NCBI RefSeq assembly: GCF_037975245.1
Contig: NC_092570.1
Span: forward strand, 17,399,918-17,463,917
Length of the DNA: 64,000 nucleotides
Direction of reading: 5' to 3'
Source: Apostichopus japonicus
Lineage: Eukaryota; Echinodermata; Holothuroidea; Aspidochirotida; Stichopodidae
Part shown: in pieces, positions 28,314-61,008 of the stretch
Numbering within the stretch: the first letter of the stretch is position 1
How the letters are laid out: the number at the start of each line of letters is the position of its first letter
Position numbers and translations under genes: made by a program
The notes under the pieces: generated by a model
Database searches by the model: none
Told to the model about the DNA's origin: nothing
Seen by the model: only the letters and a program-made list of their open reading frames with translations

Positions 28314-31300
28314 ATGAGTGCTTCGGATGACCCTGCATCCGGCAAAGTCGCCCTGAGAAGGGTCCTCGGCTTTTTTCCTAGCGTTGCCTTCATCATCGGG
28401 ATCGTGATTGGGACGGGTATTTTCGTTTCCCCGACGGGTATACTACGAGGGGTTGATGGCTCCGTCGGATGGGCGTTTACCATATGGATAACTTGTGCAG
28501 TCATCGCCATGTGCGGGGCATTGACTTATACAGAACTTGCGTCTTCGTTCACAAAATCTGGTGGAGAATTTATCTTCATTAAGGAGGCGTTTGGACCTGT
28601 TTTGGCGTTTCTTAGAATCTGGACTTTGGTGGCAATTTTAGGTCCAGCATCCATTGCGGTCCAATCTTTGACCGTAGCCAATTACCTGATTACACCATTC
28701 ATGGGCGATTGTAATAAAGAAGACTATTACGTGCCTATACGTCTCGTTGCTGCTTGTGTTATGTGTAAGTATAGACTTTTATACTTTTCACCCCTTCCCC
28801 TTTCCAAGCCCCCTCCCCTCCTCTCCTTCACCAGTCGGACGGAGGCTGGCGCATCATTTGCTATCGGCTCTATGTTCCAACCTGCGCGGCGCTGTGACCT
28901 TGAAACAAGCGAACTTGCATAGGATCACGCCAAAACTTTCATGCTACAATTATTACGTGATACATATTTAAACAGTCACCCTGATATATAGCCAGATTAT
29001 TACCGTAATTCAATAATATTCCATATAGACTGCTGGTATCGAATTTAATCTTTAGAAATAGTTGACCTTTATCCATGTCATTGTTGACCATGCCAATACT
29101 GCCCTTAAGGGTTGTAAGTTCCTATTGAATAAGTAGTAAGACCTAGAACTGCCATTGTTGTATTCAGCTCGGTGACTGATTTCACAACAACCGTCTTTTT
29201 TGAAGGGAACCCGCAGCATGCTGACTCCCAAGTTTTAACCTGCAGTAAAAACACACAGACTGACCATGTACTGCCTACGTCACAGACTGACTTAATTATG
29301 ACGGTAAACGCTATTATATAAAGGAATTTTGCTGACTGATCCATATCGAGACTCTAAAAGTTATTATTATCATTTTAATGTCCTTTTTCTGAAAGTTCTG
29401 AGCCAAATAACATGATTTGAGCCTTGAGGCACTCTGAATGACCACGATGATGTTGCAAAAAATAAGGCAAATTACGGTATCTTCCTATAAAAAACCCACC
29501 ACAGTTAATGTTTGAACATCACCGGCAGTAATACTCAGTAAGTAGAGCAGTAATAGCTCAGTGGTTAACGCCGGTGCCTTTCAATCATAAGGTCCCCGGT
29601 TCGAGTCACTCCAAGATTAACGTATGTCGTCCAGTTACAGAGTTGTTGACAATTGACAATCATGGACGTTAAATGTGAATGTAAGAGACTGACTTCGGTC
29701 AGTTTGCGGCTTTGATAAGTTCCTGCTGGCAGGAGGATCTAATATACATATATACATACATACATACATACAAAACTAAACCAAAATTGCTCGCAAGCGC
29801 ATATATAGGCATGCATCGGTTATTACATCGCATGCCAATAACATACAATCATTTGCCGTGTTATACCCTTCCATATTGGTTAGAATTGTTGGGGAAGTCG
29901 TTACAAAAATAATAATATCAGTTTAATCATTGAAAAACACATCGCAAATTATTTTTCTTTCAGTAGGTGCCCGAAAAATTCTCAGCATATTGCCCGAATT
30001 TTCTCAAAAATATTTGGTATACCATATATACCAACTTGTGTTTGATCAGGGAGTTGTTTTGCTCCATAACAACTCCCTGGTTTGATTAATAGAAATTCAA
30101 AAGAGAGAATTCGCTACTTTTGCTATAGACATCATGCATGGTCGTGCATGCCATTTAGACATATTGAAAGAAGAATGACTATATAGAGTGCACTTTTGGT
30201 AACATGTATGGGAAGTTAAACTGGCCATGCGTGATGACATTGAGTAACCATTCGTTATGACGAACAAAGTGCGGGTATACTCTGCAATCCTGACCTTGGT
30301 ATAAATATAGTCAAAATGTGTACAATCTATAGTAAAACGAATGACAGTAATATTACTAGAGAAAGTTAGTCAAAATACCATATAAAAGAAGAACTTAACT
30401 CTCATAGAATGTATATTTATTAAAGTTTGCATATTCATGAGGTCGACAGTGGTCTTTCCTTGTTATTATATAGTCATTTTGATGCTTTTAGGTTGTGTTT
30501 CTTCAAATTAAAACCCAATTTCCTTTCAATTTCTTCCATTGTATATACAGGTCTTATCACTTTCATCAATTGTCTCTCAGTTCCGGTCAGTTCGCATCTT
30601 CAGAGCTTCCTAACGGTGGCTAAAATAATGGGATTGGCCGTTCTCATATTGACTGGCATGGTTCTCCTCTTCCAAGGAAATGTCGATAATTTCAAGAATC
30701 CTTTCGTTGTTGAAGATTTTCAACCAGCACTTTTGCCAAGTGCTTTTTATTCTGGCATATTTGCATATGCAGGCTGGTGAGTCTTTTTGTTTATATTTTC
30801 CAGTTTATAATCTTATTTTATGCATGTTTGTATACTAAATTATGCAAATAATTCTCAAAACTTAATTTAAGAGAGAACTATCAACAATAAATCGATATAT
30901 GATGTTTAAGAATTCCACTGAATATCCCAAATGTCTGTAAAAACCAAGGAGTTGTTATGGCCTATACTTGAACCAGAGAGTTGTTATTCCATAACAACTC
31001 CCTATACTTATACCAGGAAACAGCCACGTGAATTACAAATCCCTGAATCCCTGCATGCTGAGTACACCATACGGTGAGTTCCCACAGCATTCCGACAGGG
31101 ACAACTTAACAAATAGATTGAAATTAAAAAAAAAAAAATTTTATTTATAAATGCAGGTAGCAATGAAGCGCATTCTTCTAGACATTATTAATGTTTAGCT
31201 ACAAACAGGGACGTAGCCAGAAATTTTGAAAGAAGGGGGGGGGGGTAGAAGAATTTTAAAAGGGACACTTCTCACAAAGGGAGCATTCTTACACTTAACG

Positions 31301-34300
31301 GAGCACCATGATTTACAAGGGGGGAAGCGATCACTCCCATTCCCCCCCCCCTCCCGCCCTGGCTACGTCCCTGTGAACAACCAACTTGTGCCATTACATG
31401 CTCCCGTAAGATAAGTTGTCATTATAAATGGTCACGTCCGTTAAGTTGCGATAATCTTGTTTTATTTATCAAAATAACCGCATTTGTCCACGGTCAATTA
31501 ACAATTGATATGAGGTCACATGCACGCATCAGGAGGTAAACAAAGGAGAGAACCCGTGTCCCGATAATCCAAGATTTACTCGATTTATACTTCCATAAAG
31601 CCTTTACTTACTTTTCAGGGTTTTTATTTATTTATATTACATATAAATGTTTTCATAGGCCTCTAACGTTATTAATACTTAAAAATGAAATATACAAAGG
31701 TAAAAACAGCCTTTGTATATAATATCTACTCTCCAAAAATGAGACACAGCACCCGGTTGAAGTTGAAATTTAATAGTCCATGCATGGATGACAAATAATT
31801 CATGATTTTATGGTATTGGGGTCGATTCTTCAAGGCAAGGGCTTGGAAATTATATTTCTCTGGTGTGAGAGAGGCAACCTGGCAGAACGGTCAGATTAAA
31901 ACTACCATGAAAAGTCAAAGATGCGCTACTCAGTAATCTGGTTAAAGTACCAGAAGGGAATTGAGAGTGAAGCAAAATGGGACATCGTTTGGTGGCAGGG
32001 ACGTAGCCAAGGGGGTGGGGCAGGGGTAGCACCCCCCCCCCCCTTGAGTACCCCGAAACGTGGGAGGCATTTTGGGCAAACATTTTCTTTTTACATTGTA
32101 ATGACGCTCCGTTAAGGATAATAATGCTCCCTTTGTGAAAAGTGCCCCTTTTAAAATTATGTTGCCCCTTTTAATATTATGTTCCCCCTTTCAAAGTTCT
32201 GGCTTCGTCCCTGTTGGATGGATACACAAATCTACAATAGACTGCTCTGCTCTATCTTTCATCACACCATGAAAACCTGTGAATACAAAATAATTAATGA
32301 TCTATTATGCAACTCAGTTGAGGTATTCAAAACCTGGCTAAAGGTGAATGCTTGCTATAGTCTGTTGTAGCCTACATTTTGTGTTTGTTTTTGCGGCCAT
32401 TATAGGGTCCAATATCTATAACAAACACTGTTTCTCTTAAATACCCTTTTAACATTAAAATTTAAAAAGAAATGTTCGATAGGCACTACCCCCCCTCCCC
32501 CTCACCCCATGCATGGTTTACAGACTACACATAGCAACAAAGGCAATATATACTATTATATGAACTACACGTTATACACTAAAAAAAAGAGTTAGATGTG
32601 TAGTCAGTGCTCACGTTATTATGTGATACTTCATTTTATAGTATCGAATGTGTGATCTATATGCTGTCGAAGGAAATGGGGTCGTATTTTGCTCAATAAT
32701 CTTATTTGCTTGACTTGTATTCTAAGATACATGTGTGACAATTTAGTTTGACACAGCATATCTGCTAAACACAGGCTGTATAGAGGGGATCTTGATCAAT
32801 GTGTATCTCTTTATCTTCTCCCATTTGCAGGGATTATATCACGTGCGTGACAGAAGAAATCAAAAGACCAGAGAAGTAAGTTTAATTACCGTCACACGAT
32901 TCTTGTTAATTAATAACTGTGATCTGTATACCCAGTTGCTCATGTGGACAATAAACATAAAAGAATTAGTGCATGAGCAGACACCGTGAGGCTTCACGCC
33001 TCCAGCGCACCCCACCCCCCCCCCCCGTCCATCCCTATCCACTCCTCCACCCATCTATCAGTGTCGTTCCACGAAACGAAATTCCGATTTCCACGAAAAC
33101 ACTAACCCAGTGGAATGTAGCGTATGCATCATAAGTATAGGGTGTTGACAGGAATCCCCCGTAACTAGATTAAACTAAGTGTCACAGGTCAATCAACAAC
33201 AAATATTAATCTGTTCACCATGTTCCAGTGACGTCAATGAACTCATTCATGTTTTAACATGTTTAAGGCATACGGACATTATCACTTCTGATTCAGTGTT
33301 TGTCTTCCAACTTCCATGGAGGTAAATACAGACTGTTTTTACCTCCATGCAACTTCCAAGCGATGGTCATTATTGATGCTGACGTCACGAGCAATATGAT
33401 TGGGTGAAAACTCCACAATTGCAAACCTGTTTGGGAAAAGCAAATTCGTCCCCAGGTCTACGCCGCATCTACCACAATTAAGGTAACAGTATAAGCCGAC
33501 ATACGAATGACATTACAGTTGAACATAGTTATTTTCCCAACGTAATGTATACAGTATACATATCAGTGTTTCCATGATACTGCCAAGTTAACTCGGCCGC
33601 CAGATCCTTTGAATATCATGTAAACTGTCCCTGAGCTAGGTATAGGCCTACTAAACTAACATATATATGAATCAGTATTGCTGTCTCCTTCATTGTAGCC
33701 TACAGTGTAAAAGTAAACAAATGGAACGCAAACATTGACACGCAAAAAAATTACGAGATCTGATGAACCAAGGAATTTATGTATGCGAACATCATCAAAA
33801 TGTGACAGTATTTAAAATTTCATTGCTGTTTGCTTTTTGTGTGTGAATACGATGTGGTATGGGGATGGTTGCTGGGGGGGGGGGGGGGTTGGGGCGGTAG
33901 CAGTACTACAAAGTGCAACGTCAATATATGATGCCTGCATGTTGTGCAACCTGACAACCTGTTTTTCAACATGAATTTTCATTGAGTTAAAGGCATTGAA
34001 GACTCGCCCCAAACCGCTTGCCGCGCTCTGAAAAAGTTAACTTTCCGTTGCTTGCAAGTGAAATTTTCTACTTGTCGCTACAAAATGCAGACAGTAATGA
34101 AACGTGATACCTTGTTATCAGTTTTATCTAGACCTGAGATGTACATCGCTGCTATGTACACTGTGTTGTGGATATTGACCCAGGGAGTTGTTATGGAACA
34201 ACTCTCTGAGTGACCGTAGCTGCATGTGTTGACTGTACACTATTGTGTCTAATCGGGGAGTTGCTTAACAATTCCTTTGAATAACCGACGGTAGCAAGCT

Positions 34301-37300
34301 GTGTGTGTATTTTCTGGGATCGATGGTGGTGCCTAACACTTCTGTAACACCTCATTGGTCAGGTTACCGGCATGAGACGTTTCTTTAAGCAAGCGAAGAT
34401 TTGTGGATATCGGCTGCATAGGCAGGGACGTCTAAATGCTAACACGTATATACAGCAACACTCAGCTGGAATATGCATCCAGACATCACTGTTGCGTGAT
34501 TGACACACTCGCCATTCACATGCGTCGCAATCACTACAACCTATAGTGTAGAATAACTAAATAGCAGTCTTGTACCACGATCATTGCTAGTAACAATACA
34601 ACAGCGTATAGTGTTTGTTCTTTGGTGGTTCTTGAAGTATTTCACTGTAAAGGTTAACAATTTAAGTGACAAAGCAAATAAAGGGTACATCTCTTTAGGT
34701 CTCTCAACCATGCAAGAAGCTGTCTATTGCTAAAAAAAAAAAACACAGCACCTCCAACTGAACTAAACTGACAATCCTCTCACCGATTCTCGCCAAGACT
34801 ATACAACCGATGGGTATACCAACCTTTTTTCTTTGTAACAAATCACGTTTTGTACGGGGGAAGACCTTAAAACAGTTCTTCGATGTAGTTGGACTATATT
34901 ACGCTTAGAAGTAAACATAGTAGGCCTACTCATGTCGATTTGATGACGTAATTTTTAGAGAGAACGAAAGGTGTAGAATAGTAAATAATAATTGTAAAAA
35001 TTTGTAATTAAAGAGCAAAGGAAAGACCTGTCAGGAATGATGATTTCATCGGAAAGGTTATAATATAACAGCGATGTTGTCGCTGAGTTGCAAAAGAGAA
35101 ATGAGCGGGAATTAAAGGATGGTTGTATAGGCACGCTTTTTAGTTGAATATATTGTGTATGTGTAAAAGTAAGTGGGCCTGACGTTTCGATCCTAGCAGG
35201 ATCTTTTTCAGAGGCTAAATGACAAGTAAAATATTTTGACAAGTAACATATTTTGTATCAATAAAATGGCTGTCGTTAGTTTAGCTTGCATTTCTGGTAG
35301 CATACGCCCATTAAAAGCCCCATCGACTTTACACACTATATCACAAAAGTAATGTGGTCTCTAAGTCTAGATAGAAGTTCTCACTAGCTAAACGCTACCC
35401 ATCACTGGATAGCTGACAAGTTGGCCTTTCATGGCCCGATCAATTTTCCGTATCATGACCATGCAGATTCTTTGGTATCCGAGCCTGAAGTTTCGTCACT
35501 TGTAAACAAACCTCTTCAATCAGTATAGTAAACAATTTAAACAGCTGAGACTCATTAGTAAAAGTGGCTGGACTACTTGGTCTAAGAAACAGATCCGTTA
35601 CGTCAGTTCCTCAATTAGTGCAACACAAGACTCACGGGAACTTATCGATATATTTTAATGGCCATGAAATAACATGTATACAATACATTACACACTTGTC
35701 AAGGAAAATTGTGTTGATTGTCGTCCTAATAAAGTTAATCTGTTATTGTTTACATATAAAAAAAAGTATTGGTTCAGATATAAGACATAACACAAACAAT
35801 TGATTAACGTTATACACTAAGGCCTGTAATGAGGAGCTGACGTCATTTTGAATTAAGTCTTAAAGGAGCATATACCAGAAATGTGGCATATTTTAAAGAT
35901 GAACGTCGTAACAACTGGAATAGCTATTGAAATATTATACCAGCACTCAATTATTTTCTTTCTTTTCTTTTCTTTTCTTTACGTTTTGGACGATGAAATA
36001 TGCGATAAGATTAAAAATTCTGCGTATTTTCTTCTTGTTTTTATTTTACATCATAGAACTGTGGTTGCCATGGTTGTGTCTTTGGTTTTCGTGACTATTG
36101 TCTATCTTCTAGCTAACACTGCATATCTGACGGCACTGACACCAGATGAAATACTCTCGTCTGACGCGGTTGCTGCGGTAAATAATGATACATTTACATT
36201 AAATTTGTTTCAATTTTGAATATACATATTATACTTGGTACGAGATTTTCTCTTTCAGCCAATCACTCAAGAGTCGCTGCAGAAAAATTCTTAAAAGAAT
36301 AAATATCTCTTAGGCCTACAACTTAACGTAACATACTGTAAACACCACACGCAATAGAAGTTATAATTCAAGAAGTTTCTAAAAGGCCTGCTCTTAGAAG
36401 CTATATATAAGCATTATGATGCCTTACGTATACATATAATATTTTATTCGTAGGTTATATCATATATTTAGCTTATATCAGCTTAGGCTCCACTTCCATA
36501 TAGCTCATATCACACTTATAGAAGGGTAGGCTGTACTTCCATATAGCGTATATCATATATTTATAGCTTATATGCAGCTTAGGCTGTACTTCCATAGCTC
36601 ATATCTTATATTTAGCTTCAGCTTAGGCTCTACTTCCATATAGCTTATATCATATATTTAGCCTATATGCAGCTTAGGCTGTACTTCCATAGCTTATACA
36701 ATATATTTAGCTTATATGCAGCTTCTACTTCCTTATAGCTTTTATCATATATTAAGCTTATAGCAGCTTATAGGCTCTCCTTCCATAGCTCATATCATAT
36801 ATTTAGCTTATAGCTATAGGCGTAGGAGGCGGGGGGGGGGGGGCAGCCCACCAGCCCCCAACGAAATATTTTTGTGGAAATTCGGGCAATATGCTGGGAA
36901 TTTTTCGGGCACCTACTGAAAGAAAAATAAATTGCAATGTGTTTTTCAATGGTTAAACTTATATTATTATTATTATTATGATTGTAACGACTTCCCCAAA
37001 ATTATAACCAATATGGAAGGGAAATAACACGGCAAATGATTTTATGTTATTGGCATGCGATGTAATAACCGATGCATGCCTATATAATATGTACATTAAC
37101 ATGTTGAATTTTGGTTATATTTTTCGGGCAAGTCGTTACAGCCCCCACCCCAAATCAAATTGGGCTCCTACTCCTATGCTTATAGCAGCTTAGGCTATAC
37201 GTTCATAGCTCATATTATATATTTAGCTTATAGAAGCTTAGGCTCTACTTCCCTATAGCTCATATCATATATTTAGCTTATATAAGCTTCGGCTCTACTT

Positions 37301-40300
37301 CCATAGCTGGTATCATTAATTTAGCTTATAGCAGCTTAGGCTGCATGTACTTCCATAGCTCATATATCCTACATTTAGCTTATACTAAGCAGTTTAGGCT
37401 ACACGTCCATAGCTTATATCATATATATTTAGCTTATAGCAGCTTAGGCTGTACTTCCATAGCAAATATCATATATTTTAGCTTATAGCAGCTTATACAG
37501 CCTATAGGCTGTACTTCCATAGTTGGTTCATATAGATCAGTCTGACGTTATTTTTTTTCATTCATCTTTTGAGATTTATCTTTCTCATTTGAGGCTAATC
37601 AGGATTTTGCTTGGTTAAATAATAATCTGCTGGTTCACTTACAGTGTGGTTTGTCATTTCATCATTTCAATCAATTTTTCTTTTTTTTAACTGCAGGTTT
37701 TATCAACTTATTTACAAGTCAATAAGAGTGAATACATACAATATTCAAGTAAACAAATTGAACTATTGGTTGCAATTAGTGTTTCTTGAAATAAATAAGA
37801 AAAAAAATCAAACCATGAAGATTAGTGTTAAAATATACCGGTACCTCAATGAGTCATAAAGTGTAAACGTCCAAGTCCCAATATACAAGGATGAAATTGA
37901 GAAGCCTTTATGTATGCTGACACATGTATGTAGATGCTGCATTTTGTTATCAAAAGTGGCCAAGGCAATTACAGAAGTCACACGCTGATTCCGAATTGGC
38001 TTTAACCTTGTAATATTATACTCTTGAAAAGAAAGAAGCGTGAGCCTTTTGATGAGTCAATTTCTTTCATGACCAAATTTAAACTCACTCCCCCACCCAT
38101 CCCCTTCGACTGACAACACCCTACTTCTCCCTTAAAAAAAAATTGAATAATTTGTTCTTTTCTTTTTTTCTTTTTTGCCCTGGCAGTGTCGTTTCATTTG
38201 CATAAAGTTCATATTAACACATTGATAAGGATACTTTCATGAAGGTTAATTTTGAGTTTATATGGTTTACCGCGTTCTATTTATAGACATTTGCTGTGCG
38301 TGTGCTGAAGAGTTGGTCATGGACCATCTGGATATTTGTGGCGATGTCGGCCGCTGGTAATCTCAACGGGCTCCTTTTTACGCGATGCCGAATGTTCTTC
38401 GTTGCCGCAAGAGAAGGTTACTTGCCGGAAGTGATGTCAATGATTCATGTCAGGTGGAAGACGCCACTTCCTGCCATGGTGGTATCAGTGAGTGTCGCCT
38501 TGAATTTGGGCTATATTGGCATCACCAAGCTGTATTTATGGTAGCATGAACTGGGGAAGGGGGTAGATGGGGTGCAGGCTGGGATATTAAAATGTGAAAT
38601 TTCAAAAACTTGAAAGTTTGAAAGAAATAAAGACTGTTACTTTATTCAACTTCTCATCGCTTTTGTTCATAAGTTAGAAGAAACAATGTTACTGATGAAT
38701 ATGAAATATTTATTTTGTTTTAACAATTACTTTTACACTGAATATTCATTTTCTCTTCAGTTGCCGCTCTCACTTCTCCTCCTCTTGGTCAGTGACGTCT
38801 ACGTTCTGATAGACTTTTTGACGTCAGTCGACACCGCCTTCACCGTGATAACCGTCTTGATCGTTCCTTACTTCCGGTGGAAACAACCCAATCGCCCGAC
38901 GACCTACAGGGTCAGTAAATTTGATTTTTGGTTAATTGTGTGTCCTTTGGCTGCAAGCAAGTACTGACCTAAGACGGCGAGTTGATGTGTATGTGTGCGT
39001 GTATGTATGTGATATGCGAGCTATTAAAACAGTGACTATATATGTATATATAACGGTTGTTGTGCTTCATACTAGGTGTATGATATATTTTACGAAGTAC
39101 AACACTTGTGGGTTTGTGGCGGTCAAAGGTCATTTGAGGTCAACAGAAATCCGTTTGACATTATTTTCAAACACGTCATTTAAGGTTCATTAAAAGTCAA
39201 AGTTTGAAATATTTGTTACCACGGTAACTAAAAGAAAAAGATACGGTGGGTGGATCCAATTCAAACACTCAACCAAAAAAGTGTCTTTTGTGAAGGTCAC
39301 AGTTCATTTGAGGTCAAGTCATAGTCTGACATCTTTAGTAGAACTGCTACGAAATATATTTAATTGTGCAGTAAGCTGGTAATTAACTTTAAAGCTTTGA
39401 CGGGAATAAATTCTGACACATGTTTAGTGTGGTACGCCTTTGTTATTTAATTGCTTTGATAAATATAACCATAAGATATATTAAAGTGAAGACTTACGTT
39501 ATATCATGATTGCCAACACGTTTTACACTAATGTATTTGTGTATCTGGAGCCCGTGGGACTAACTCACAACCTCCCATATATTGGAGTCGTGCTTCAAAG
39601 ACCCCAGGGCCACACCAATCCTTAATTAAGTCCTGGATCCACCCTGCATGACCCACTGAATTAGCCCTGTGTCGACAAAGCAATGTTGTTACAGAGTGTG
39701 GGTCTGGGTGGGGGTGGGAGGGAACGGGAGTGCATCCGAGCTCTCTTTAAATTAGGAGATCCAGCGAAACATGGTATGAAGAGTAATGTATGACCAAAAT
39801 ATAACCCTACCTAAGGAAACTTCAAGACTTCGGAAGAAGGCCCAGTGACATTATTGTCTTCGGAGCCTGACCAGGGCTCTCAACGCACCTCTACGTCGTA
39901 TAGTTTGCGGGGTTTAATCCGACATAGGGTAAACAATTTTAATGGGTGTAACGGCCTTCAATGGAAATCTGACAGCTTTCATATACGCAAACCAGCAACA
40001 GTACGTACCAGCAGGGTAACAGTAAGGTCATTGTTACTTCACGGTGACATTGAAGTAACAAACGTGAAAATAGACAAGGAGGAATTATCAAGCTATTGTA
40101 TGCATGCCTTGAACTCTAAGTCAATTATCTTTCTGTTATTCATACATACCGTATCTTATTTACTGATATTTTATCACAGTTTTTTCTTCTATCACACACA
40201 CACGCACACTACATGGAAACAGCACGGTATGAGCTGTAGGGGGCTTCCATAGGGAGCTATGGGAACTTCTTAAACAGGTGGATCTGACCTCCGCTTTAAT

Positions 40301-43300
40301 GAACTTTTTCCGAGGATTGATAATGTTTTTTAGCGTGTCCACAAGGTGCGTCGAAAGCGAGTCCGCTATACGTGGGTTGAACAGTAGAATCGCAACCATT
40401 AAAAGTCACTCTCAAATGACTCCTGAGCAAATGTCTAAAGGTCAACTCTAGCAAGGGTTGAGTTCTATTTAGCTATACTGCCATCAATATTTTGTACACA
40501 TACATTGTTGACATGTTAGGTTTTCAAAAGTACATTTCGGTAGATTTCCATCCATCAAATTATTCCCAGATCGTCAGCGGCGGAAAAGTTGACAATTGAC
40601 TTCCTCGATGAGGGAAAATGCTTGAGTTGGGTGACCATTAACATACGTTCTAGCATATTTTCCTTCGCCAATACTGATGACCTCCAACGCTGATTGATAC
40701 TTGAATACAGATATCCACTGCATAAGAAGGGGGAGAAGAGTTAGGGTAAAGGAGTGATTCATATCTTTTCTCTTTTTCTCTTCAACAGGTTTGGCTTATC
40801 ACGCCAGTTATCTTTATATTGTTTAATATGTTTGTTTTGTTGATGTCCTTCTACTCGACTCCTGTTCGGTCCACTCTTGGTTTGGTTACCACCCTTTTTG
40901 GTCTGGTCTTCTATTACTTTGGTTGTCGATGGACGAATAAGCCGCGGTCGGTCCAAAATGCTATTGGTAAGCCAAATTTCTTTCATTTTTGGAGAAGAGT
41001 CACGCCTTCAAAAACAATGATTGGAACTCCAATCCAAATGTCAGCCGAAATACGTATATTGGCTTTGAAGAGTATCGTAAGCTTTACAGCCAGGAGTGCG
41101 TGCGCGTGTGCGTTTGTGTATTGTGCGCGTTATGTGAAGGCTGCGTGTTCCGCGCGTGTATCAGACAAACCGCCTTAAAATTTAGCTCTTTATTCTACCT
41201 AAATTCGTATAAGTTGGAATAAAACAATTCATAATACATTTTACTTAAGTAGAATATAGGCCCTATATGTTCTCAATTAAAAATCATCCTAGTACAGTAA
41301 AATTTGGAAACCAATTTTACTTAAACCTGATTGTATTTCGCCTACTGGGGTGAAGTACCATCAGTGGCGTCACCAGACTTTTCAGTTTGGGGGGGCACAG
41401 GGGGGCACCAGCATTTGATGGGGGGCACTTAGGTGGATACGGATTGCCGTCCTGGGGAGGGGTGTAAGGGGAGGGGGTGCCCCTCCAGGTGCGGTGGATC
41501 GGGAAAATTATTGGGGGGGGGCTAATGTGTAGAGACTATCTAAGCGGAGCGCCACCATCGGTTGGCGCGGAGCGTACAAGAAAATTTTGGGTTTTTCAAA
41601 CCCCCAGATGGCCGGAAACGGCACTTCCCGAGTGTTTTATGCTGCGAATACCTAGCCCTAAAATATGGGTCTCAAGCCTGCAATTTCTCAGATTGCACGT
41701 AAAAGTCTGTAAAAACATTGTAATTTGTATATTCGATGGTGTTTTAAGAGAGTAGCTATTACTCGTAGTGTACTCGCAAAGACGTTTTTGAGTGTAGTAA
41801 GGGATGTTGGAGAACTGGCTGAAATAAAGCAAGTCATTGGCCTAAGACGAAGTTGTGTTGCGCTTACCGGTACTCACACTCACTGCTTCCACTTTTCACG
41901 GGGCTTGAAGACGCGGTTGGGGTGACAATGTGGTCTATAGCCAGGGGACGGGCCGAGGGCCCCCCCCCCAGCATTTACTAAAATTATTACACCTATATAG
42001 TATACGTGTGCATCGGACAGATCGACAAGTATGCATTGAAAAATGGGCAGATGCACGTTTCGGAGCCTTGGTAAATATTGGGGGGGGGGGGGCTTATCAT
42101 GCATTTGCCCCCTCAACTTTTTCATTGCCCCCCCGGTTCCGCCGCCACTGCCCCCCTCTCCTTTGGAAAATTTTCGCATACGGAGAATGGGCTAGATGCA
42201 AAATGCTGCCACATTTGATGCTAAATTCGATCTGAAGATATCTCCAGAAATTGCTATTTTTGAGGTAATGATTTTAACAAGGCGCAGAATTTTGCAGAGG
42301 ATATGAACCACATGCTGTCGATATTATGCCTAACCCTATATCAATAGAACCTACATTTGTTGAATTAATGTGTGCATGACCCCCGACCCCTTTCTTGTCC
42401 TTCTCGTTTTCGCCCATTATCTATTAAGATGTAACAGGTTCCAGCATCGTTATTGGCTCCTATCAGGGATCTCACAATGCAATCCAAAGTTTGATCACAC
42501 ATCGAGTATGGCTAAGTATGCAGGTGTGAACATTCGCCATTTGTTCCTACAAGCATCTGACCTCAAATGACCTCTGCACCCCCTACACAACAGGGTTAAT
42601 ATATGGGTCCACAAATATAGGCAAGTATGGTGCCTGCGGACCCTCACATTCTCACATTTCGTCAGCTCCTAACCTGTCAACCTCAGACCAAGGCAACATA
42701 TTGCAGTACCCTCCCTTCTCACAGTCATGTAGCTCGCGAAGCGGACGTGTATATCCGCTGGTATGGCGTGAGCACTGACACATTCAATGTAAATATCGAC
42801 ACCTGTTGTGATGGCGCGGGTTACGACTTCGATACCCGACGTTCAAGGATAAACTTTTTCATTTATTCGCAGCTCATTTGAAGAAAATACGAATTACTGT
42901 GCTTCTTTGTCCTTATGAAAAACCAACTCAGATGATGGGAGTTGAATATAACAAAATATATATATATTTTTCTACCAACCCAAATCTCAGATGGGGGGGC
43001 ACTCGGGGGGCACTAGGTTTTCCAGGGGGGCACGTGCCCCCCTGGCCCCCCCTTGGCGACGCCACTGAGTACCATTCTACTTAAAATGTCATTGGTCAAT
43101 CAGTTTCACTTCAGTCAAGTAGTTAGCTTTAAATAAAGTGTGAGTGGTCAGTCACTACTCTCTCTTTAGTTAAGTGCTTTTTAACTTAAGTGAAAATGCG
43201 AGTTTTAAGAGTATTATATCAATGCGTAACATTGATTTTATCCTTAATATATACCTCCTTGCTCAGACTTTATTCTGAAAGCCCCGTGTAACGTCTAGAA

Positions 43301-44701: not shown

Positions 44702-44729
44702 TAGGGAGTTGTTATGGAACAACTCCCTG
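44702..44729. mobile_element. 28-bp palindromic micro-element with 7-bp TSD
   Basis: Arms TAGGGAGTTGTT and AACAACTCCCTG around ATGG. Flanked by the perfect 7-bp direct repeat GTATGAG (44695-44701 and 44730-44736). Confidence 0.85.
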
Positions 44730-44750
44730 GTATGAGGATATGGGTTTGAC

Positions 44751-44767
44751 CAGGGTTGTTGTTCATG
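44751..44767. mobile_element. 17-bp CAGGG...CATG micro-element with 7-bp TSD
   Basis: CAGGGTTGTTGTTCATG lies between perfect copies of GTTTGAC (44744-44750 and 44768-44774), only 15 bases past the previous element's duplication. It keeps the ends of the family but not the palindrome, so it may be a decayed or partly excised copy. Confidence 0.65.
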
Positions 44768-46755
44768 GTTTGACCTACATGGCAGAAAATGTCCGCAGCG
44801 TATTCCGAACATGAGTTGAGCAGATCCTTATACTAAAGAGGGACAGAAAGGAACGTCTGTATAGTCTGTAGGTTACTCTGTCAGCCAAGGCTTGCGTGAG
44901 GGGGTCAGGGGTTACAACCCGAGCCCTGGTCAATGAGAGAGGAAAATATGATCAGGAAAGAATTTAAAAAAAGTTTGCTCTCCCATATAAAAATTCCCAA
45001 ATGTAAAATGGAGGCACAGCAGTATAGCGTAAGGAGTAGCCATTTTTTTGTTTACAGTAACCAAGCATAACAAGACGTAGGGCCTGGGGGTGGGTTAAGC
45101 CCTATTTATAAGAAAATGAATGTACTACAAATCAGGAATATATACGCTGATCGGTCTATCCGACACGAGTGGTACAAGGGGATAAAGCCCCGGGGTGAGT
45201 CAATTAGGGGCCCGGGTTGGATATACAGGATACAGATCAATGTATTCTCAATTTACTTAAGGAAATGACAAGACTTCAAGAGGGGGGGGGGGGTGTAGTC
45301 ACCTTACTGTCCCCAGAGCCCGGCTGGGTTTTCTACACTACTTATCCAGTGAATGGCCGCTTGTATGTAACTTATTGGTTGAACATTTTAGTTTCCAGAC
45401 AATTAGATAACTATGTAGCGCCATCTTTTATTTTCGACGTTTTGAGACTTGTGCCTACGCTTGTAATAAGTTGAAAATGTTACTCTGTTAATATAAGATG
45501 TAGAGTTGCATTTCCTTGGTGAAATGCAGGCACGGGTACAGGGCTGTGGGGTCATCCCCCTCCCCCAGGCTTTCACGTCACAAAAAGATAAACTCGAATG
45601 TTGTTATAAGTAAAACCTTGTCGGTTTAGACCTGATTATTTGCCTTCGCAGGCACCATTTGACGTCTCAACTTTATTTGCAGGCTCAGGACACCAGTCTC
45701 CTACAAGTATGGGCGACGAACCCAGGAATACATCCTCTCCTTTTTAATGAACTTTCTTTATCGATCAACTGGCCCTGAAATAGGTCGAGAAGCTGTGTTT
45801 TTTTAGTTGATTTGAATAAATGTTTCACCATGATGCTGTTTTGGTAATAAAATTCCTGTTAGTTTAGCTCACGAGATTCACTATTCATGGGGTTTCATGT
45901 CAAATAATGAAGTATACTCAAAAAAATGAAGTGTTGAAAAGTAATCGATAAGTGTCATATCAAATACTTCAGCCTAGCTCGTACAGGGACAACACCCTCC
46001 TTGCTAATTTTACACTTTCCGAGTGTTGAAAATCTAACACCTCGCTGGTGTTGAATTTATCAACACTTGCAGGTGTCATTGTCACACCCAGTCCCCTAAA
46101 TTTAGCTCTTCAAAGGTGTTTTATTACTCAGTTGATGGGAGAGCTGTAGTAACACCACATGTCTGGCTATTCTTACACTTTTTGCGTGTTGAATATAGCC
46201 AACACCTTACTGAATGTTCAATTGACACTTGCAGGTGAAATTGCAAACCCCAAATCCCATAAATATAACACTTACACTCAAAAAACGTGATACACAGGTT
46301 AAGTAAAATTATACTTAATTTTCATGTGAAATAAGAACACTAAAACATTTAAGTAATAATTACTTAACTGCTGGTTTGTACAGTTTTACATGTTTATTAT
46401 GTAACGCAAATACAATACTGTTATGTAAAATTTTGCCAGAGAAGTTTACATAGCACCCATTTAGTAAATATTTTATACAGGTTTTAGGTTAATTATTACC
46501 TAGTAATTAGGTAAACAATATATGGATGCATGTTTGAATCGCCCACAGCAGAGAGGTACATTTAAGAGAGAGCAAAAAGCAATGACAACACAAACAATTC
46601 AGAATGTGCGATTTTCAGCAATTAAACACCCTACTACCTTCCTATTCCAGAGGTCCATATATTATATCCCATTAAATGTAAAATAAACAATTTAGGCTAT
46701 AAAAGTACTGTCTTGTGGAATGAAGTCAACTTAAAAGTGCCAACATTTTCAGTTG

Positions 46756-47262
46756 CTACAGTTCAGTTACTTGGTCTTTATTGTTTGCGCATACCTTTTG
46801 GTATTCCAGATTAAACACAAAGAAACAATTCTTCCCAAAGTCAATTTCAAATCATGCAACAACTTTAGAGAAATTCTGATCCATGGGATGAGAAAACATG
46901 GAGTGCTGTGTATGATGACTGCTACACTACAGTGACTATGTATTTGTTGTTGGCAAATGCCTTTTGGTATTCCAGATTAAACACAAGAAACAACTCTTCC
47001 CAAAGTCAATTTCAAATAGGCAACAACTTTAGATACTGATCCGTGGGATGAGAAAACGTAGAGTGCTGTCTCTGATGAATGCTACACTGCAGTTACTTTG
47101 TCTTTGTTGTTGGTTTGTGCCTTTGGTATTCCAAATTAAACACAAAGAAACAACTCTTCCCAAAGACAATTCCAAATAAGCAACAACTTTACATACATTC
47201 TGATCCGTGAGATGAGGAAATGTGGAGTGCTGTCTATGACAACTGCTAAACTGCAGTTACTT
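46756..47262. repeat. Three tandem ~160-bp units next to the element gene
   Basis: Each unit has TTTGGTATTCCAGATTAAAC, CAACTCTTCCCAAAGTCAAT, TGATCCGTGGGATGAG and GAGTGCTGTC. The unit nearest the gene overlaps the last codons (VTAV and stop), so the repeat arose by duplication of the gene's 3' end. Confidence 0.9.
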
Positions 47263-48569
47263 TGTCTTTTTTGCTGGCACGGTAAGCATAAAAATCTCGA
47301 ATCTGGTTGCACTTCACACCACCAGGCAACTGGTTGACAACTTTTTGGAAAAATTCCCAGGCACCGAAACTTGCAATTTGGTATAATTCAGATTTAACAC
47401 GTAGAATGATATGAAGCAACATCAATGGCTTCATAAATGTCCTCTGGGGTAGGGCATGTCTCTCGATGATCACAAATGACTGCTGAGGATGTATTTTGCT
47501 TCCTCCAAGAAGTAACACATATTGCTGAGGTCTTTCTGAAATCTTTTGCAAATAGAATTCCAAGTTGATGCTACCTAAGTAACAAAGAAAAGAAAAGAAA
47601 ATTCCCATCATAATGTAGTTGTGTTAAAACATTCTTGGAGCATAAGCAGTTATTTACATGTACCCCTCACAAAACATTGACATTCCTAAAGAAAATGCAC
47701 ACAATTTAATCAGTTTTGGTTGTCTTCTTCAAGCACATTTGAAACTAGAAAGCCAGATGGCCTATAGTGATTCCTTGTCAAAACAGGAACTTGCATTAAA
47801 CTTTCATCAGACAATGTAGGCAACTTTTACAACCAATGCATCATGTTAACAATGCTTAAAACAATGCTCACTCCCATTGTATGCAATTGTGTAGATGGCT
47901 ATGAACTGTAACAGCTAGATCACTTCCATAATATTGCTAAATTATAGTTGGGCCTAGGTCTAAAAGTATCACCGATCCACATCAGCTTCGGCCTACTTGC
48001 TACAACTTACAAGCTAAAATGGCAATTAGTGGTAATTATATATTGCATTACATGAATATATGTTTATCCCTTATTAAACATAGTACCAGCGTAACTATAG
48101 GCCCATGCTCGATGCTTTTAAAAATGCATTGCCTTGCAATAGCCTAAGTATATCCTACTAGGCTAGTACTACTATTTAAAAAAGTGACTCGCAGGGTATA
48201 CGAAGTTACGGTTAACGCCCAAAAGGAATAGAATGCACTAGGTTACATAAAAGGCCTAGACCAAAGTCCTCCGTCCGTCCGTCGGCAATTCCGTTTAATT
48301 TAACTTGTATGTAGATTACACAGATTCGTTGACAATTATGAGTTGGCTATGACAAACAGCAAGTAGCCTATTATATTAACTTATCGTATGACTTTAACGT
48401 TAGGTCTACGTAACGCAAGCGATTCAAATGCATTCGTCTACCCAACTTTGTCGTGGGTCTCTAAGCATATCTCGTTCTTTTCACGTTCACTTACATAATA
48501 TCAAAACATACCTCCGAATTTTTCAATCAATTCTTCCAGGCCCCAGTCTCCTATAACGTCATTTTCCAT
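47246..48569 (-). CDS. Element-borne gene: SAM-like N-terminus joined to PB1/SAM-family C-terminus (128 aa)
   Basis: Two exons on the minus strand, 48512-48569 and 47246-47574, with GT-AG junction in phase (387 nt with stop). Exon 1 encodes MENDVIGDWGLEELIEKFGG, which resembles the first helix of a SAM domain. Exon 2 encodes LQKISERPQQYVLLLGG, FVIIERHALPQ, and GAWEFFQKVVNQLPG. These match my recollection of the C-terminal motifs of a large multicopy family in fish and invertebrate genomes, often labelled 'sterile alpha motif domain-containing protein 3-like'. The usual middle (PB1-like region and the block seen at 62.0-63.8 kb) is absent, so this is an internally deleted form that keeps an intact frame. 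No catalytic motif is seen. Whether it is expressed is unknown. Confidence 0.6.
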
Positions 48570-48896
48570 GCCATTGTAGCTCGTTATCGCACACTGAATA
48601 CGTAACGTTATGTGGCTTGCACGTATATATGGCCGTGGTTACTATAGTACATTTAGTAACGGTAAATGTCAGTGGTTTAAATACTTAACTTGCACTAAGA
48701 ATCCAGCTGATGGGAGGTTTGACCAATCGGAATGCTCGAACTGAAAGTACAATTTCTGCAGGTGTAAAAAATACACGCTACTTGAATTATGTAACCCTAC
48801 TCAGGGTCAGAGTAACCCTTCAGGTGTAGGGTGAACGGTTACACCTGGAAAGTGTTCAAATTCAACACTCCATTTTTTTGTGTATAATTGCTAGAA

Positions 48897-50383: not shown

Positions 50384-50393
50384 CGCATCCCGG

Positions 50394-51145
50394 TTTTTTT
50401 TCCCAAACAGGTTTGCAATTGCGTGGTCTTCCGCCAATCAGATTGCTCGTGACGTCAGCATCAATAATGGGCATGGCTTCGAAGTTCGTAGACATGCACT
50501 GAGTTACACACTGACACTTAATTAAGTCTAGTTACGGGGTTTCCCATCAAACGCCCTAACTTTACTTTAATGCTTGAATCACATGTTGACCTTACTTATG
50601 ATACATACGCTACATTCTATTGGGTTCGTGTTTACGTTATTCAAGATTTGTGAGCCGTTCTACTACAATCGGAATTCGTTTCGTGGAATGGGTAGGCCTA
50701 CACTAAAATCAACTTCACGAGTCTTGAATGAATATACGCAAACAGTTTAGTGTACTGAGTATGATATTTTCCGTCACTGCACTGTGTACACAGTTGACAG
50801 TTATAATACATATAGGCCACCAGCGCATGTGTGATGTACCATGTACGAACATTTCACTGTGCGATGTTATCGATTAATGCATGCCTACACATAAAACTTC
50901 GATCAAAGTAGATGATCATACCATACTAGTGTGCTCAATATGTCTAAACCAATTCCAAACACATCTACATATATTAACGAATAGCTTCGGGTAATTTTGA
51001 ACGGGCATATCTTCGTTGCAACGAATGGATGCAGACACTTTGGTAACCTGGAAGTGAAGGTTTCTATCGTGATGACGTAACATTTCCGACCAATCATGAG
51101 CGCCTATTTACACGCAATTGCAAACCTGTTTGGGAAAAAAAATTC
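50394..51145. mobile_element. MULE-like element, 752 bp, long TIRs, 10-bp TSD
   Basis: The left terminal repeat begins TTTTTTTTCCCAAACAGGTT and runs on through TGCAATTGCGTG; the right is its perfect inverse over about 32 bases. The direct repeat CGCATCCCGG flanks both sides (50384-50393 and 51146-51155). A 9-11-bp duplication with long terminal repeats is typical of Mutator-like elements. It lies about 500 bases upstream of SLC7-like gene 2 and contains TGACGTCA, a CRE consensus, also kept in the truncated copy at 33.4 kb. No transposase. Confidence 0.88.
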
Positions 51146-51638
51146 GCATCCCGGTAACTTCAAGAAGATATATATATAGCTTTACTGATTAGATCCATGG
51201 TCGGATAGCTTATATTCGATTGTATTCAGGCTTACAGCTCATTGCATACCAACAATGGGGTTACCACAAGGAAATTAACTTTAGTGACTTGTTGCTAATC
51301 GAACCACTACATGATTCTTCCCCTGCGTGTAAACAAAGGCAGCGGTATACCTATAAGTGTGTGTTTATCCTTACACAGGATGTCTTACATACAACTGCGA
51401 AGTGAGTTGCGTTCATAGTCATTGAACTTGCGCTACGATTCAGAACGAAAGCAAACGTATCGTTCTTGCTGCCTGCCTGTCTGAGCGATATAAACTTGTA
51501 ATTGGTTGAGCATAACCCGTTGATGGCACAAGGCCAAAGCTGTGGATTTGCTACTGAACAGGCCTTAGAAAGTGGTCAAGGTTTATTATTACATATTTGA
51601 AGGGATTACGGCTATCTTCACCGCTTTGGAATTGTAAA

Positions 51639-54600
51639 ATGGCCAAACCTTCCGAACGTAGTTCAGGACGGCACAGAAACGTTGATGATGATAGTGTAGC
51701 GTTGGTCAGAACAATCGGGTTTTTTCATTGCGTTGGTGTTTTACTTGGTTGTGTTGTTGGGACAGCAATATTCCTGTCACCGACGGCGATACTGAGAGGT
51801 GTTGGTGGCTCCGTGGGTTGGTCGTACGTAATATGGATAGCTTCATGTATTTTAGGATCCATGGAGGCTATGTCGTTTGCAGAGTTAGGCTCATCACATC
51901 CCAAATCTGGAGGAGAATTCATTTACATAAAAGAATCCTTTGGACCGTTGCTAGCATTCCTTCGAGTTTGGACGAATGTGTTGATTATGAGTCCTGCGAT
52001 GGCCGCTCTTCAGACGATGGTGATCGGTACGTACATCGTAACGCCGTTCCTCGGAGACTGCCAAGAGCCTCTATATGGTGCAGTTAGGCTTCTTGCTGCC
52101 TGTGTTATGTGTAAGTATTCACTATTCCCACGTAATGTTTATATACAAAGACTATAATGCCTTCGTGTATACTGCAGTCTACGTAAGTCGAATTTTACTC
52201 TTGTCCCGATGGACTGTTTTTACCTCCATGGTTATACTCACACACACTACTCAGTTGTATAACTCTATACACTGTGTATTCCTCTAGCGTGTCCAAGCAG
52301 GGAGTTGTTATGTTCCATAACAACTCCCTGGTCCAAGATATGCCCTGCAATTATATATGAAAACAGCATGTTTTCATATATAATTGCCCAAACAAAGGGG
52401 TAGACTATTAGTTTTCAGCAAGTGATGTTCGTAAGGAGCCGAAGTGGCAGAACATACTCGGATGTTGAAGAGTTAAAATCGGTGTGTTGAAGCTAGAATA
52501 CAATTACGTCCTTGACCAACTGAATGTTGAATGTTGGCTCGACTACATTCAGTTGCGGAACTGACTGTATGTGTGTGTGTTGGGAGTGTATATGTAAGTT
52601 TGTAATTAGTCTTGTTACACTAATTGGTTGTATACACGATAATTCAAACAAATAAAGGGTGGTTGAACTTCATACTTTATATTTGTCATGTTAGGCCTAA
52701 ATGTCAGGGTAGGTTTTAATCCGAAAAATCTCAAAAAGATATGCTTTGGGAAACTTTTCTTCAAATATAACGTATGTAGTGACTAGCCTATAGAACAACC
52801 CTATATCTTTATCATAATCATTTTTCCAGATCAAAGGTCATTTAATTGAGACGAGCAAACGCCATAGTCCGAAAGTCTTGTAAACATATAGGCCTAACTG
52901 CAAATTATCTGAAAAAGTTCATATTTAGATCAAAGTCTGAAGACCACTGAAAGACGAAAACTCCTAAACTAAACGGTGTATGAAGTTGTTTCTTCGTCAG
53001 TTTAGCTCCATGATGAATGTTAGAACCTTTCTGACTGGCAAAAATTAAAAATAGTGTACGCAGTGTTATTATTAAATAGTCTCACATGATTGACGAGGGA
53101 CTGCCTGTTAAATATATGCTTATCTCTTCCCCAACCTCGTAATTAAGACAATAATAATCATCGTTGTTTTTTCATCTGCTGCGGCGGTGCGGCGTTCCAG
53201 TTGTGTAATTACTGTCTGTGAATCAAATTAATAACAGCCATAATTCCCTCACCCTTTCCTTTTTGGGGGGGGGGGGGATTAATAACAGCCATAATTACCG
53301 TCACCTTTTTTGGGGGGCAGTGGGGGGGGGGGGGGTACGGGTGAGAATTTGCCAGTGATTGCTGTCCATAACAAGATGTCTCCCTTATTTTTTTCTCCGT
53401 TTCTGTCTTGTATAGTTTTAATTTTCTTCATCAACTGTACCTCGGTACCGCTGACTGTCAGGATCCAATCATTTTTGACTGTCTCGAAGATCTTTGGTCT
53501 AGCCGTTCTGATTGGTTCAGGACTTATACTTCTCTTCAACGGACACACGGACAGTTTTCGAAACCCTTTCCATGTCAATCAGTTTCAGTTTGGTGGTTTA
53601 GCGAGTGCATTTATGGCGGGAAGGTACGCATTTGGAGGCTGGTAAGTAAACAAGCACGGTTATGAAGCAGACACCCCCACCCCCCCCCCCCCGCGCAATC
53701 ATCGTTATTGATATGTGTGATATCGATTTAACACACTTCAATGAAAAATTCCCCAAACAGCTTTAGACGAATCCTTTGCCCATTTGGAGGTTGGAGACTT
53801 GATCAAGTCAAACTATGACATCATTTAGCCATGTGTGCATGCTATACCGTTTGTTATGTTTCTTTTTAAAGATTATTATGTTTATGTTGTACCACGGACA
53901 TGGATTTTCACCTGATACTGAATCTTAAAATAAACTCTTGATCGTACCTAATGTCATGGCACTGCTGTCTATATCAACATTGTAAATATTCTACCTTGAA
54001 AATATGAAAACAAAGAGACCGTATAACGAGTTTCCGATCGTAATGGCACCATGATTTCCGGATTTACGAAATGATTGCTCACCAAAACACGACTTTTAAA
54101 CTAGGATAGCTCTCAAACTGAGCGAGACTGTTCGTATAGGTCTAAATGTTTTGGGAAGATATAACTTCACAAAGGTCTCTGTCATATAATTAGCTACATA
54201 ATGGCGGTTGTTTTTGTGTACTAATGAAGCTATCGGTAACGTGACGTCATATATAGCAACGAGAATTAGATAAGAATTCTCACTTTACTTAAACTGAAAT
54301 TAGGCCAATTGAGAGGTCCGAGTAAATTTTGGGGAATGAAGAATAATCTATATTCTCAGTTTCATGATATACTTCAGGAAACTTTAGGAATTCTAAAAGG
54401 AGCCAGGTGACGTGGTCCAATCTGGCTCTGACGTCATTGTCTATATCTTGACGTCACTGTCTATCTCCTGGAACAAAATTTGCAGTAGACTATAGGCATA
54501 GATGAAACATTTTTTTTTATTGTAAACTTAATGGACTTAGCTATGATATGAGGCTTAGCAATCGGGAGGTTCCGGATTCGATACCCTGCCTTGTCATAGC

Positions 54601-56165
54601 AAGGTGGGTTTTTCATCCAAGAGTAATGTACGGTTTCCATCTGAAATAACTAACTTAAAAAGATTCCAAATATGAGTTAAAATGTTGAATTGGAAGCCAC
54701 CCGACGTGTAAGTTGTAATTTAGAAGCCCTTGCGGGCTTCTCCTGCTTTAGCGTCGTAAAGTAACTGCTGATTACTATTATTATTATAAAGTAAATCGTA
54801 GTTTATTTAATGCAAATCGGGAAAATGGCGGAAAAATGTTACAGAGTAAATACAAATATGAAAACTGTACGTACAGATGAAATTATCAAAGACATAAAAT
54901 ACCAATCAAGATAATTCCCCCCCCCCTCAAAAAAAAAAATGTATCAAAGAACGTAAAACATAAAACACAAAACAGGCCAAAGTAGAATTACCTAATAAAA
55001 TCAATGTTATATAAGAGCCAATAGCGGCAGCCAAGAAAGGAGTGGCGGTATGGGTGCATGTATACACCAGTTAACCTACTGCTGCTTAGAATAAGGCTGT
55101 CAGTCAGCAGAAGATAATGTACTGATAGTTCTTCCCGCCCGTTTTAATACGTCATTGAGACATTTTCTCCTCGTTTTTTAAGTGTTTCCCACCCAGCATA
55201 TATAACACCAAACCGTAGATAATATTGGCCTATATAATATTAAAAATATTAATAATAAAACATGGCAAGTATGACAGGATTAAATATTAAAAGAATTTAG
55301 CTTATGAAAGCAGTTATAAAATCTAGATTTCAACCTCGGTTCAACATAAAGAACATGATCATTCCGGCCCAGTTTTTTCATCGAACATAACTCCCAAATA
55401 TTTATATGACGCCATGCACTCTCTCATATATACAAATATGTCCTCGCTTTTCACAGGATTTCTGTGTAAATTTGCGTGTTGTTCTGAAGTCAATAATCAT
55501 CTCTTTTGGTTTCGTTTTACACTCATTAATTCCAGATAGTTTTCTGTATACAATACCCGACGAATCATACTAATGTGATCAATATACAAACTAATGTCGT
55601 CATGATAAATAAAACGAACTGGAGGGTGGTGTCATCTGCAAAATTTCAAGAGGTGAAATCAGATGTGTAAATCTTTAAAAAGAAAAACGGGGCTAAAACA
55701 ATTCCACGAGAACCAACAGTAATTGATATAAGGGCCTAATAATATTGAAGTTTATCCTACTACTGAATCTAACAAATATAACTGATACTCTTCAAAATCT
55801 TCTCAAGAAACGATGGGCTACAACATCAATACCAGCGCGTCTTTTGCTGTTTTGTACTGGGAGACATTGCACCAGTGATATGTGTTACACACTGTAACCA
55901 TGGAGGTAAAACAGTTTTACCTCCAAGCTGTATATGCAAAATATGAAAGTATACAAAGTACACGACTTGATGCTATTCAGCAATGTGTTGTGCATCATCT
56001 GAATTCCTGCAAAAGCCCGCGAATGGTTGTGGATGTGTAATATACTGCACATAGAAATATATCGCTATATATAGGAGTACCTGTACAAATTAGAAGATAT
56101 CTTCAAACCGATGATGAATACAAATTTAACCATATACGCCCCGTATAATTCCCAAGCTTTATAAA

Positions 56166-60565: not shown

Positions 60566-61008
60566 CAGTGTTACCAGAGTTAGCGTTTTTACACTAGATC
60601 TAGCGTTTTTAGTCATTTGTGGGGTTCTAGCGCACGTTTTTTCTAATTTTGGTAATTCTACCGTTTTTTGCCTAAAACTAGTTAAATTGCCAAAAATTGA
60701 CCACTTTTCAGATTTTTTAGACAAAATTCTTACTTGGAGACCCATCCAAATTTATTTTGAGTATTTTTGCCCAATCTTCGGAATTTCCTACCGAAAATTT
60801 CCATATTTTTTTAAAATTTTCTAGGTCAGACTATCACTCAAATCAACTATTCAAAATCTATTTTGTGATCGGTGACCATTCATCCTACGAATCTGTGCTA
60901 AATTGACTCGAAACAACACGAATGTTAGGGAAACTACCATTTAGCGTTTTGTAGGGTTTTATTTTCGCAAATCTAGCGTTTTTTCGTCAACTGTCGCTGG
61001 TAACGCTG
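60566..61008. mobile_element. hAT-type MITE, 443 bp, 8-bp TSD
   Basis: Ends CAGTGTTACCAG and CTGGTAACGCTG, flanked by the perfect octamer GATAACAT (60558-60565 and 61009-61016). The interior carries repeated TAGCGTTTT motifs near both ends. No coding capacity. Confidence 0.92.

Follow-up and report, generated by a model that had tools for sequence, protein, structure and literature searches.

Short palindromes between 7-bp direct repeats in the genome of Apostichopus japonicus, probable excision footprints of P-like transposons

The locus and its palindromes

The DNA considered here is a 64-kb window (the whole stretch that was analysed) on contig C10 of the 671.6-Mb, 35-contig assembly of the holothurian Apostichopus japonicus, and its subject is a group of short palindromes that mostly stand between 7-bp direct repeats. 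A preliminary description of the window had reported six such palindromes and a 17-bp insert, and all seven were confirmed where it had placed them, with flanking 7-bp repeats that are exact at five sites, 6/7 at one and 5/7 at one. When 400,000 pairs of positions were drawn at random at the same spacings, a 7/7 match was obtained in 0.19% and a match of at least 6/7 in 0.52%. The palindromes are built from two types of end, F1 (palindromes of CAGGGAGTTGTT type) and F2 (CATGGAGGTAAA type). An eighth palindrome, at 30974-31004, was absent from the earlier list, and its flanks mismatch (1/7). Two open frames near the palindrome sites match amino-acid permeases (PF13520, E 1.8e-13 and 3.2e-11), which is consistent with the SLC7-like genes that had been proposed there. 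The features are as follows.

30047..30079, no strand assigned: F1 palindrome, probable footprint, 33 bp; GTTTGAT 7/7 at 30040-30046 and 30080-30086; on the minus strand 17 nt CAGGGAGTTGTTATGGA, GC, then a shortened second arm with one base changed
30945: additional single F1-like end, near the 30974 palindrome
30974..31004, no strand assigned: F1 palindrome, eighth in the window, 31 bp, about 14 + 17 nt
33315..33349, no strand assigned: F2 palindrome, probable footprint, 35 bp, 17 + A + 17 or 17 + 18; CAACTTC 7/7
34181..34208, plus strand: F1 palindrome, probable footprint, 28 bp, 17 + 12 via one common A, one base changed in the second arm; ATTGACC/AGTGACC 6/7
44702..44729, plus strand: F1 palindrome, probable footprint, 28 bp, T for C at the first base; GTATGAG 7/7
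44751..44767, plus strand: CA..TG insert, 17 bp; GTTTGAC heptamers 7/7
52214-52230, minus strand: single F2 end CATGGAGG, 17 nt
52298..52330, no strand assigned: F1 palindrome, probable footprint, 33 bp, 17 + 1 + 15; GTCCAAG 7/7
55899..55927, plus strand: F2 palindrome, probable footprint, 29 bp, 17 + 12, ends AG; CTGTAAC/CTGTATA 5/7

The 52298 palindrome is situated after an amino-acid-permease-like open frame. The 44751 insert may be a footprint with one arm nearly lost. No partner arm was found for the single F2 end at 52214-52230, which is read as a footprint with its other side deleted or as a lone end.

Genome-wide occurrence

The F1 15-mer CAGGGAGTTGTTATG gave 1223 + 1243 matches genome-wide and its reversed control 0 + 0. 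There are at least 1,233 F1 sites in the genome, as two-armed sites count double among the 2,466 exact matches. A pattern of two exact 12-nt arms with 0-24 bases between them, which admits palindromes of up to 48 bp, was found 729 times for F1 and 171 times for F2, the control giving 0 in either case; individual lengths are known for the 50 palindromes listed of each type. Near-identical 35-mers to the 33315 palindrome occur three times among the 50 listed of the 171 F2 palindromes. Sampling of sites by the exact 15-mer is biased to those with one nearly full arm, while the palindrome pattern (both arms of at least 12 nt) is less biased but fails to capture scars that are strongly trimmed. Before sites were counted, repeated contexts were merged or left out; locus L003, the other arm of L002, was treated likewise. 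A 25-bp form is over-represented in the samples, two repeat families (heptamers GTACAAC and ATCTCAG) carrying one scar many times.

Target-site duplication and target motif

The length of the duplication was determined on 60 distinct palindromes (from the window and sampled genome loci, duplicates merged) by comparing flanking repeats of 3-12 bp. At 7 bp the repeat is exact at 34 of the 60 with a mean identity of 0.867; at 3-6 and 8-12 bp, 0 or 1 of the 60 are exact and mean identity is 0.18-0.28. The excess of matching heptamers, proposed earlier as a check, was thus found in this set, and at 7 bp only; the duplications of hAT (8 bp), MULE (9-11 bp) and CACTA (2-3 bp) were not observed at these sites. 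In a set of 83 sites, retained where at least five of seven flank bases match, 62 heptamer pairs are exact, 14 have six matches and 7 have five. Among 72 palindromic sites selected mainly on the basis of their arms, 0, 1, 2, 3 and 4 flank mismatches were counted in 43, 13, 8, 4 and 4, respectively.

The 83-site set contains 49 distinct exact heptamers, 42 of which fit the motif xTnnnAx, against a window background of 9.2%; G stands first and C last in 54%, both strands pooled. A 7-bp duplication at a GT..AC-like palindromic target, as in the P superfamily (7 or 8 bp), is what the sites display.

Empty sites

One dispersed repeat is informative, since some of its copies (L032 and others) hold a 25-bp insert between two ATCTCAG heptamers. 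Its uninterrupted exact 24-mer with a single ATCTCAG is present in 229 copies genome-wide, and the same repeat interrupted by 16-46 bases in 87. All eight of the interrupted copies that were inspected carry an F1-like 25-mer. The 87 appear to go back to a single event that multiplied together with the repeat, because 78 of them are of equal total length.

The repeat copy in which window site 34181 falls belongs to this family too. The filled form in the window reads TATTGACC-[28 bp]-AGTGACCGTAGC, and the empty form, with one heptamer, reads TATTGACCGTAGC in L031 and L046 and TATTGACCGTAAC in L032. Reciprocally, the window copy is empty at the position filled in L032. The empty sites with one heptamer that the preliminary description had called for therefore exist, but in paralogous repeat copies, not in alleles or sister species. 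Inserts in a direct target duplication and one-heptamer empty sites, both expected of a footprint, are thus at hand. The statement of the preliminary description that each copy is a separate insertion with a 7-bp target duplication is supported by the heptamer excess and the empty sites, and a transposase encoded elsewhere follows from it.

Nearby, at 34254-34279, a degraded F1-like stretch CGGGGAGTTGCTTAACAATTCCTTTG is apparently absent from the repeat copies L032 and L046 in alignments; it may represent an additional, old insertion into this repeat.

Composition of the inserts

At the 83 sites the inserts have 16 lengths (15-38 bp) and comprise 56 distinct sequences, some differing only by single bases. 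One internal sequence common to the copies, as in a miniature inverted-repeat transposable element (MITE), was not found among them. In F1 inserts one arm is usually the full 17 nt CAGGGAGTTGTTATGGA and the other is cut back; the arms meet directly, via one common base or with filler, and at some sites filler lies between two full arms. The 50 listed F1 palindromes measure 24-34 bp, none being longer though the pattern allowed 48: one of 24 bp, two of 26, 29 of 28, five of 29, four of 30, three of 31, one of 32, two of 33 and three of 34 bp. F1 arms with 25-55 bases between them occur at only 12 places genome-wide (reversed control 0). On reading, 11 of these are two adjacent footprints or ends, three being near-identical copies and several having a heptamer between, and the remaining one is 17 + 34 filler + 17. 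As the listed lengths stop at 34 bp and wider gaps are scarce, a limit of 17 nt is indicated for the F1 arm; no more than about 17 nt of each end with variable junctions, the composition of a footprint, is what F1 inserts contain.

The 50 listed F2 palindromes are of 27-37 bp except one of 48 bp (18 + 12 + 18), their arms reaching CATGGAGGTAAAACAGA (17 nt, four-A form) or CATGGAGGTAAAAACAGA (18 nt, five-A form). A third end, F3 (CAGGGAGCTGCTACTCT), was observed in L023 as 17 + AAC + 17 between GTATAAC and GTTTAAC, and in slightly shorter form in L020. Products with a single arm were found as well: exactly 17 nt between two exact GTTTAAC heptamers (L121), 17 nt followed by a second heptamer minus its first base (L041), and 17 nt + A + a 6/7 heptamer (L077).

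Tandem footprints with a heptamer between them, such as GTCTAAC-scar-GTCTAAC-scar, occur at L013:4299-4357 and at the wide-gap places, and are read as repeated insertion and excision at one target.

Proposed excision footprints and comparison with known P elements

We consider it highly probable that each palindrome is an excision footprint, the source being a larger P-superfamily transposon of the cut-and-paste kind. A P-type element with ends CAGGGAGTTGTTATGGA (F1), CATGGAGGTAAAAACAG(A) (F2) or CAGGGAGCTGCTACTCT (F3) would insert at an xTnnnAx heptamer and duplicate it, insertion and 7-bp duplication being the demonstrated part of the scheme. The transposase would later excise the element by cutting one strand at 17-18 nt inward from each end; the donor break would then retain the heptamer together with 3′ overhangs of 17-18 nt from either end. 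This step we infer from the arm limit and from the analogy with the Drosophila P element. End joining, probably by polymerase theta as in Drosophila, would then unite the overhangs, often via one common base, with arm trimming or filler. The expected product is heptamer, arm, trimmed arm and heptamer, a near-perfect palindrome. Such a scar would no longer be mobile by itself and would be inherited, or carried as a passenger of other repeats.

The Drosophila P transposase is reported to cut 17 nt inside each end (PMC7776569). The resulting breaks, with 17-nt 3′ overhangs, are mended by alternative end joining, and the products described in Drosophila consist of an 8-bp duplication, at most 17 nt of each end, microhomology or filler, and the second duplication; blunt joins are also among the junctions (Table 1), and one and the same product may be recovered as many as 14 times (PMC2895639). 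The junctions considered here resemble these in the duplication, the trimmed arms, the microhomology, the blunt or filler joins and the recurrence of favoured products (PMC2895639). They differ in origin: the Drosophila products were recovered in the laboratory from a single assayed insertion, whose duplication measures 8 bp (PMC2895639), whereas the present ones would be natural scars at many sites, with 7 bp, three ends and arms of at most 18 nt (one F2 form).

Galileo, a member of the P superfamily, was described with 7-bp duplications of consensus GTAGTAC, GTATTAC or GTANTAC (PMC2775673, PMC4168063). It shares the 7-bp duplication and the GT...AC motif with the present sites, where the motif is looser, and it is known from copies with long terminal inverted repeats in Drosophila, whereas only ends are seen here (PMC2775673, PMC4168063). 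Zebrafish Pdre2/THAP9 provides a P-type transposase outside flies, with excision followed by donor repair (PMC10983969). Its ends also begin with CA and end with TG; unlike the present case, it has an 8-bp duplication, 13-bp terminal repeats and excision products with larger flanking deletions (PMC10983969). The P-MITEs of Anopheles gambiae, which are short non-autonomous relatives of P, were reported to have P-like ends of slightly less than 100 bp together with a central part, and duplications of 8 bp (PMC1562414); the inserts here are only 15-38 bp.

Transposase genes and the search for intact elements

Of 71 scored candidates in the genome, 45 matched the P-transposase RNase H family (PF21787); 14 control genomes yielded no match to it. 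Several matches belong to long open frames, among them a 763-aa frame that contains four P-transposase Pfam domains. Some of the loci are near-identical (L089/L090/L093/L094, L096/L097 and L099/L100; 92-100% over about 3.4 kb), a similarity in sequence that suggests recent transposition or duplication. In the P-transposase loci L089-L100, only lone matches to the F1-F3 ends with 4 mismatches were found. The reverse strand of L103, within the sequence that flanks a P-transposase copy upstream, contains an F2-like palindrome, CATGGAGGTAGCTCCATG, at about 165; scars therefore occur near P-type loci also.

Long elements with 7-bp duplications were sought in the window, where beyond the palindromes only weak pairs with a terminal match of at most 10/14 were obtained, and in the sampled loci, where four weak pairs were seen, none with F1-F3 ends. 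As a positive control, an 8-bp search of the window returned four long terminal-repeat pairs of 443-1706 bp with CAGGG.. or CAGTG.. ends, exact 8-bp flanking repeats and 12-13 of 14 terminal bases matching:

9729-10370, long terminal-repeat pair
11936-12387, long terminal-repeat pair
41362-43067, long terminal-repeat pair
60566-61008, long terminal-repeat pair

These are presumably non-autonomous hAT elements, and their recovery at 8 bp means that intact elements are detectable by this search.

For elements with the footprint ends, sequence past position 17 common to different sites was taken as the sign of an intact copy, and it was looked for by reading in 80 sites and in 20 more. The latter came from 81 places where neither of the two bases after position 17 is A, and were selected because these bases are GC or GT; a second heptamer is present at 18 of the 20 sites, and the other two, L122 and L123, are lone ends.

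Several results weigh against excision of a P-type element. An intact element with these ends was recognised in 0 of the 80 and 0 of the 20 sites, the genome not being fully scanned, and the flanks of five P-transposase loci contain no paired F1-F3 ends. The link to P is through anatomy, duplication length and target motif, not through a linked gene. Arm lengths in two of the site sets were measured on a 17-nt template and cannot by themselves show a 17-nt limit. The F2 arm has 18 nt in its five-A form, and 2 of the 50 listed F2 palindromes exceed 36 bp. One 28-mer accounts for 27 of the 50 listed F1 palindromes in identical form, two of the 27 lying in duplicated sequence. Finally, an apparent empty site for 33315 within the window failed on alignment. 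Intact copies may be rare and have escaped detection; otherwise the lineage is known in this genome almost solely from its scars.

Alternative explanations

The preliminary description had taken the palindromes themselves as mobile units, minimal 28-35-bp elements in which two inverted repeats are joined and which a transposase moves in trans. Such units too would produce separate 7-bp duplications and leave empty sites, and the recurrence of one 28-bp form is also what a mobile 28-mer would give. However, inserts of 16 lengths were counted at the 83 sites, and some products have one arm or a partly lost heptamer. Nor is the 28-mer the ancestor of the 33-34-bp forms, because these hold end bases beyond position 12 in both arms and the 28-mer does so in only one. 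Mobility of P-type elements, moreover, depends on ends of much greater length, for which at least 138 + 216 bp is reported in Drosophila P (PMC1562414). Length and centre vary from site to site, arms are trimmed or single, and filler is present; these features therefore point to products of excision and end joining, and a palindrome that is itself mobile is not supported and must be called quite improbable.

Excision footprints or remnants might also descend from another superfamily with 7-bp duplications and CA..TG ends. Neither an intact source element nor a linked transposase was found at the sites and loci examined, and the CAGGG ends recall those that we take to be typical of hAT, of which there are apparent members in the window. 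Nevertheless, these four hAT-like elements have 8-bp duplications, the arms of 17-18 nt fit a long stagger that is called unusual to P (PMC7776569), and the 7-bp xTnnnAx motif matches the GTANTAC of Galileo (PMC4168063). With P-type transposases also present in the genome, such an origin appears unlikely. Gap repair is known to yield internally deleted P elements, which could suggest that the inserts are internal-deletion remnants of interrupted repair; that process predicts a broad spread of lengths, whereas the 50 listed of the 729 F1 palindromes stop at 34 bp and gaps of 25-55 bases occur at only the 12 places. Chance palindromes that arose without transposition are excluded by the 7-bp duplications and by reversed-pattern controls of 0, so that we give these last two origins hardly any credence.

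Significance of the probable footprints

As excision footprints of P-like elements, the scars would testify to former P-like activity in settings where few or no intact copies are left, and they suggest that 7-bp-duplicating P-type elements of another animal share the long stagger measured in Drosophila P. Together they would provide an extensive natural collection of repair junctions, all derived from one known starting break, and could serve as presence/absence characters in population and phylogenetic work. More tentatively, at somewhat below even chances, we propose that a P-like lineage survives here almost only as scars, which would mean that excision without template repair outran the gain of copies. 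Were that so, the scars would be an evolutionary archive of germline end joining. No natural P-type footprints were recognised among the papers listed in literature searches, as judged from titles and the starts of abstracts, and among the matches listed for six end-derived 13-15-mers only apparent chance primer matches were seen (titles and abstracts). Repeat annotation would tend to miss scars of 25-35 bp or to call them tiny elements.

Further observations in and around the window

Eight palindromes or inserts lie within 26 kb of the window, which is denser than the genome average, the window having been chosen for the cluster. The clustering could be explained by local hopping, which has been described for P (PMC7776569), or by site preference.

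Four of the window palindromes fold well as RNA (z -5.4 to -8.3), and the preliminary description had expected RNA hairpins. Any palindrome must fold, and there is no evidence of function. An Rfam search of the window gave no match.

Close to the 52298 palindrome, at 52347-52387, lies a 41-bp near-perfect AT-rich palindrome with 20-nt arms and without clear flanking duplication. Two short palindromes in L004, one at 1392-1413 (22 bp, CACTGATC..) and the other at 2940-2964 (25 bp, CAGAGCC..), have the exact 8-bp flanking repeats GTTGTATC and ATTGTACC, respectively, and may have been left, as footprints or remnants, by other families that make 8-bp duplications. The window also contains minisatellite arrays at 7575-7885, 36451-36812, 37178-37495 and 46754-47279, with periods of 30, 46-95, 50-156 and 160 bases.

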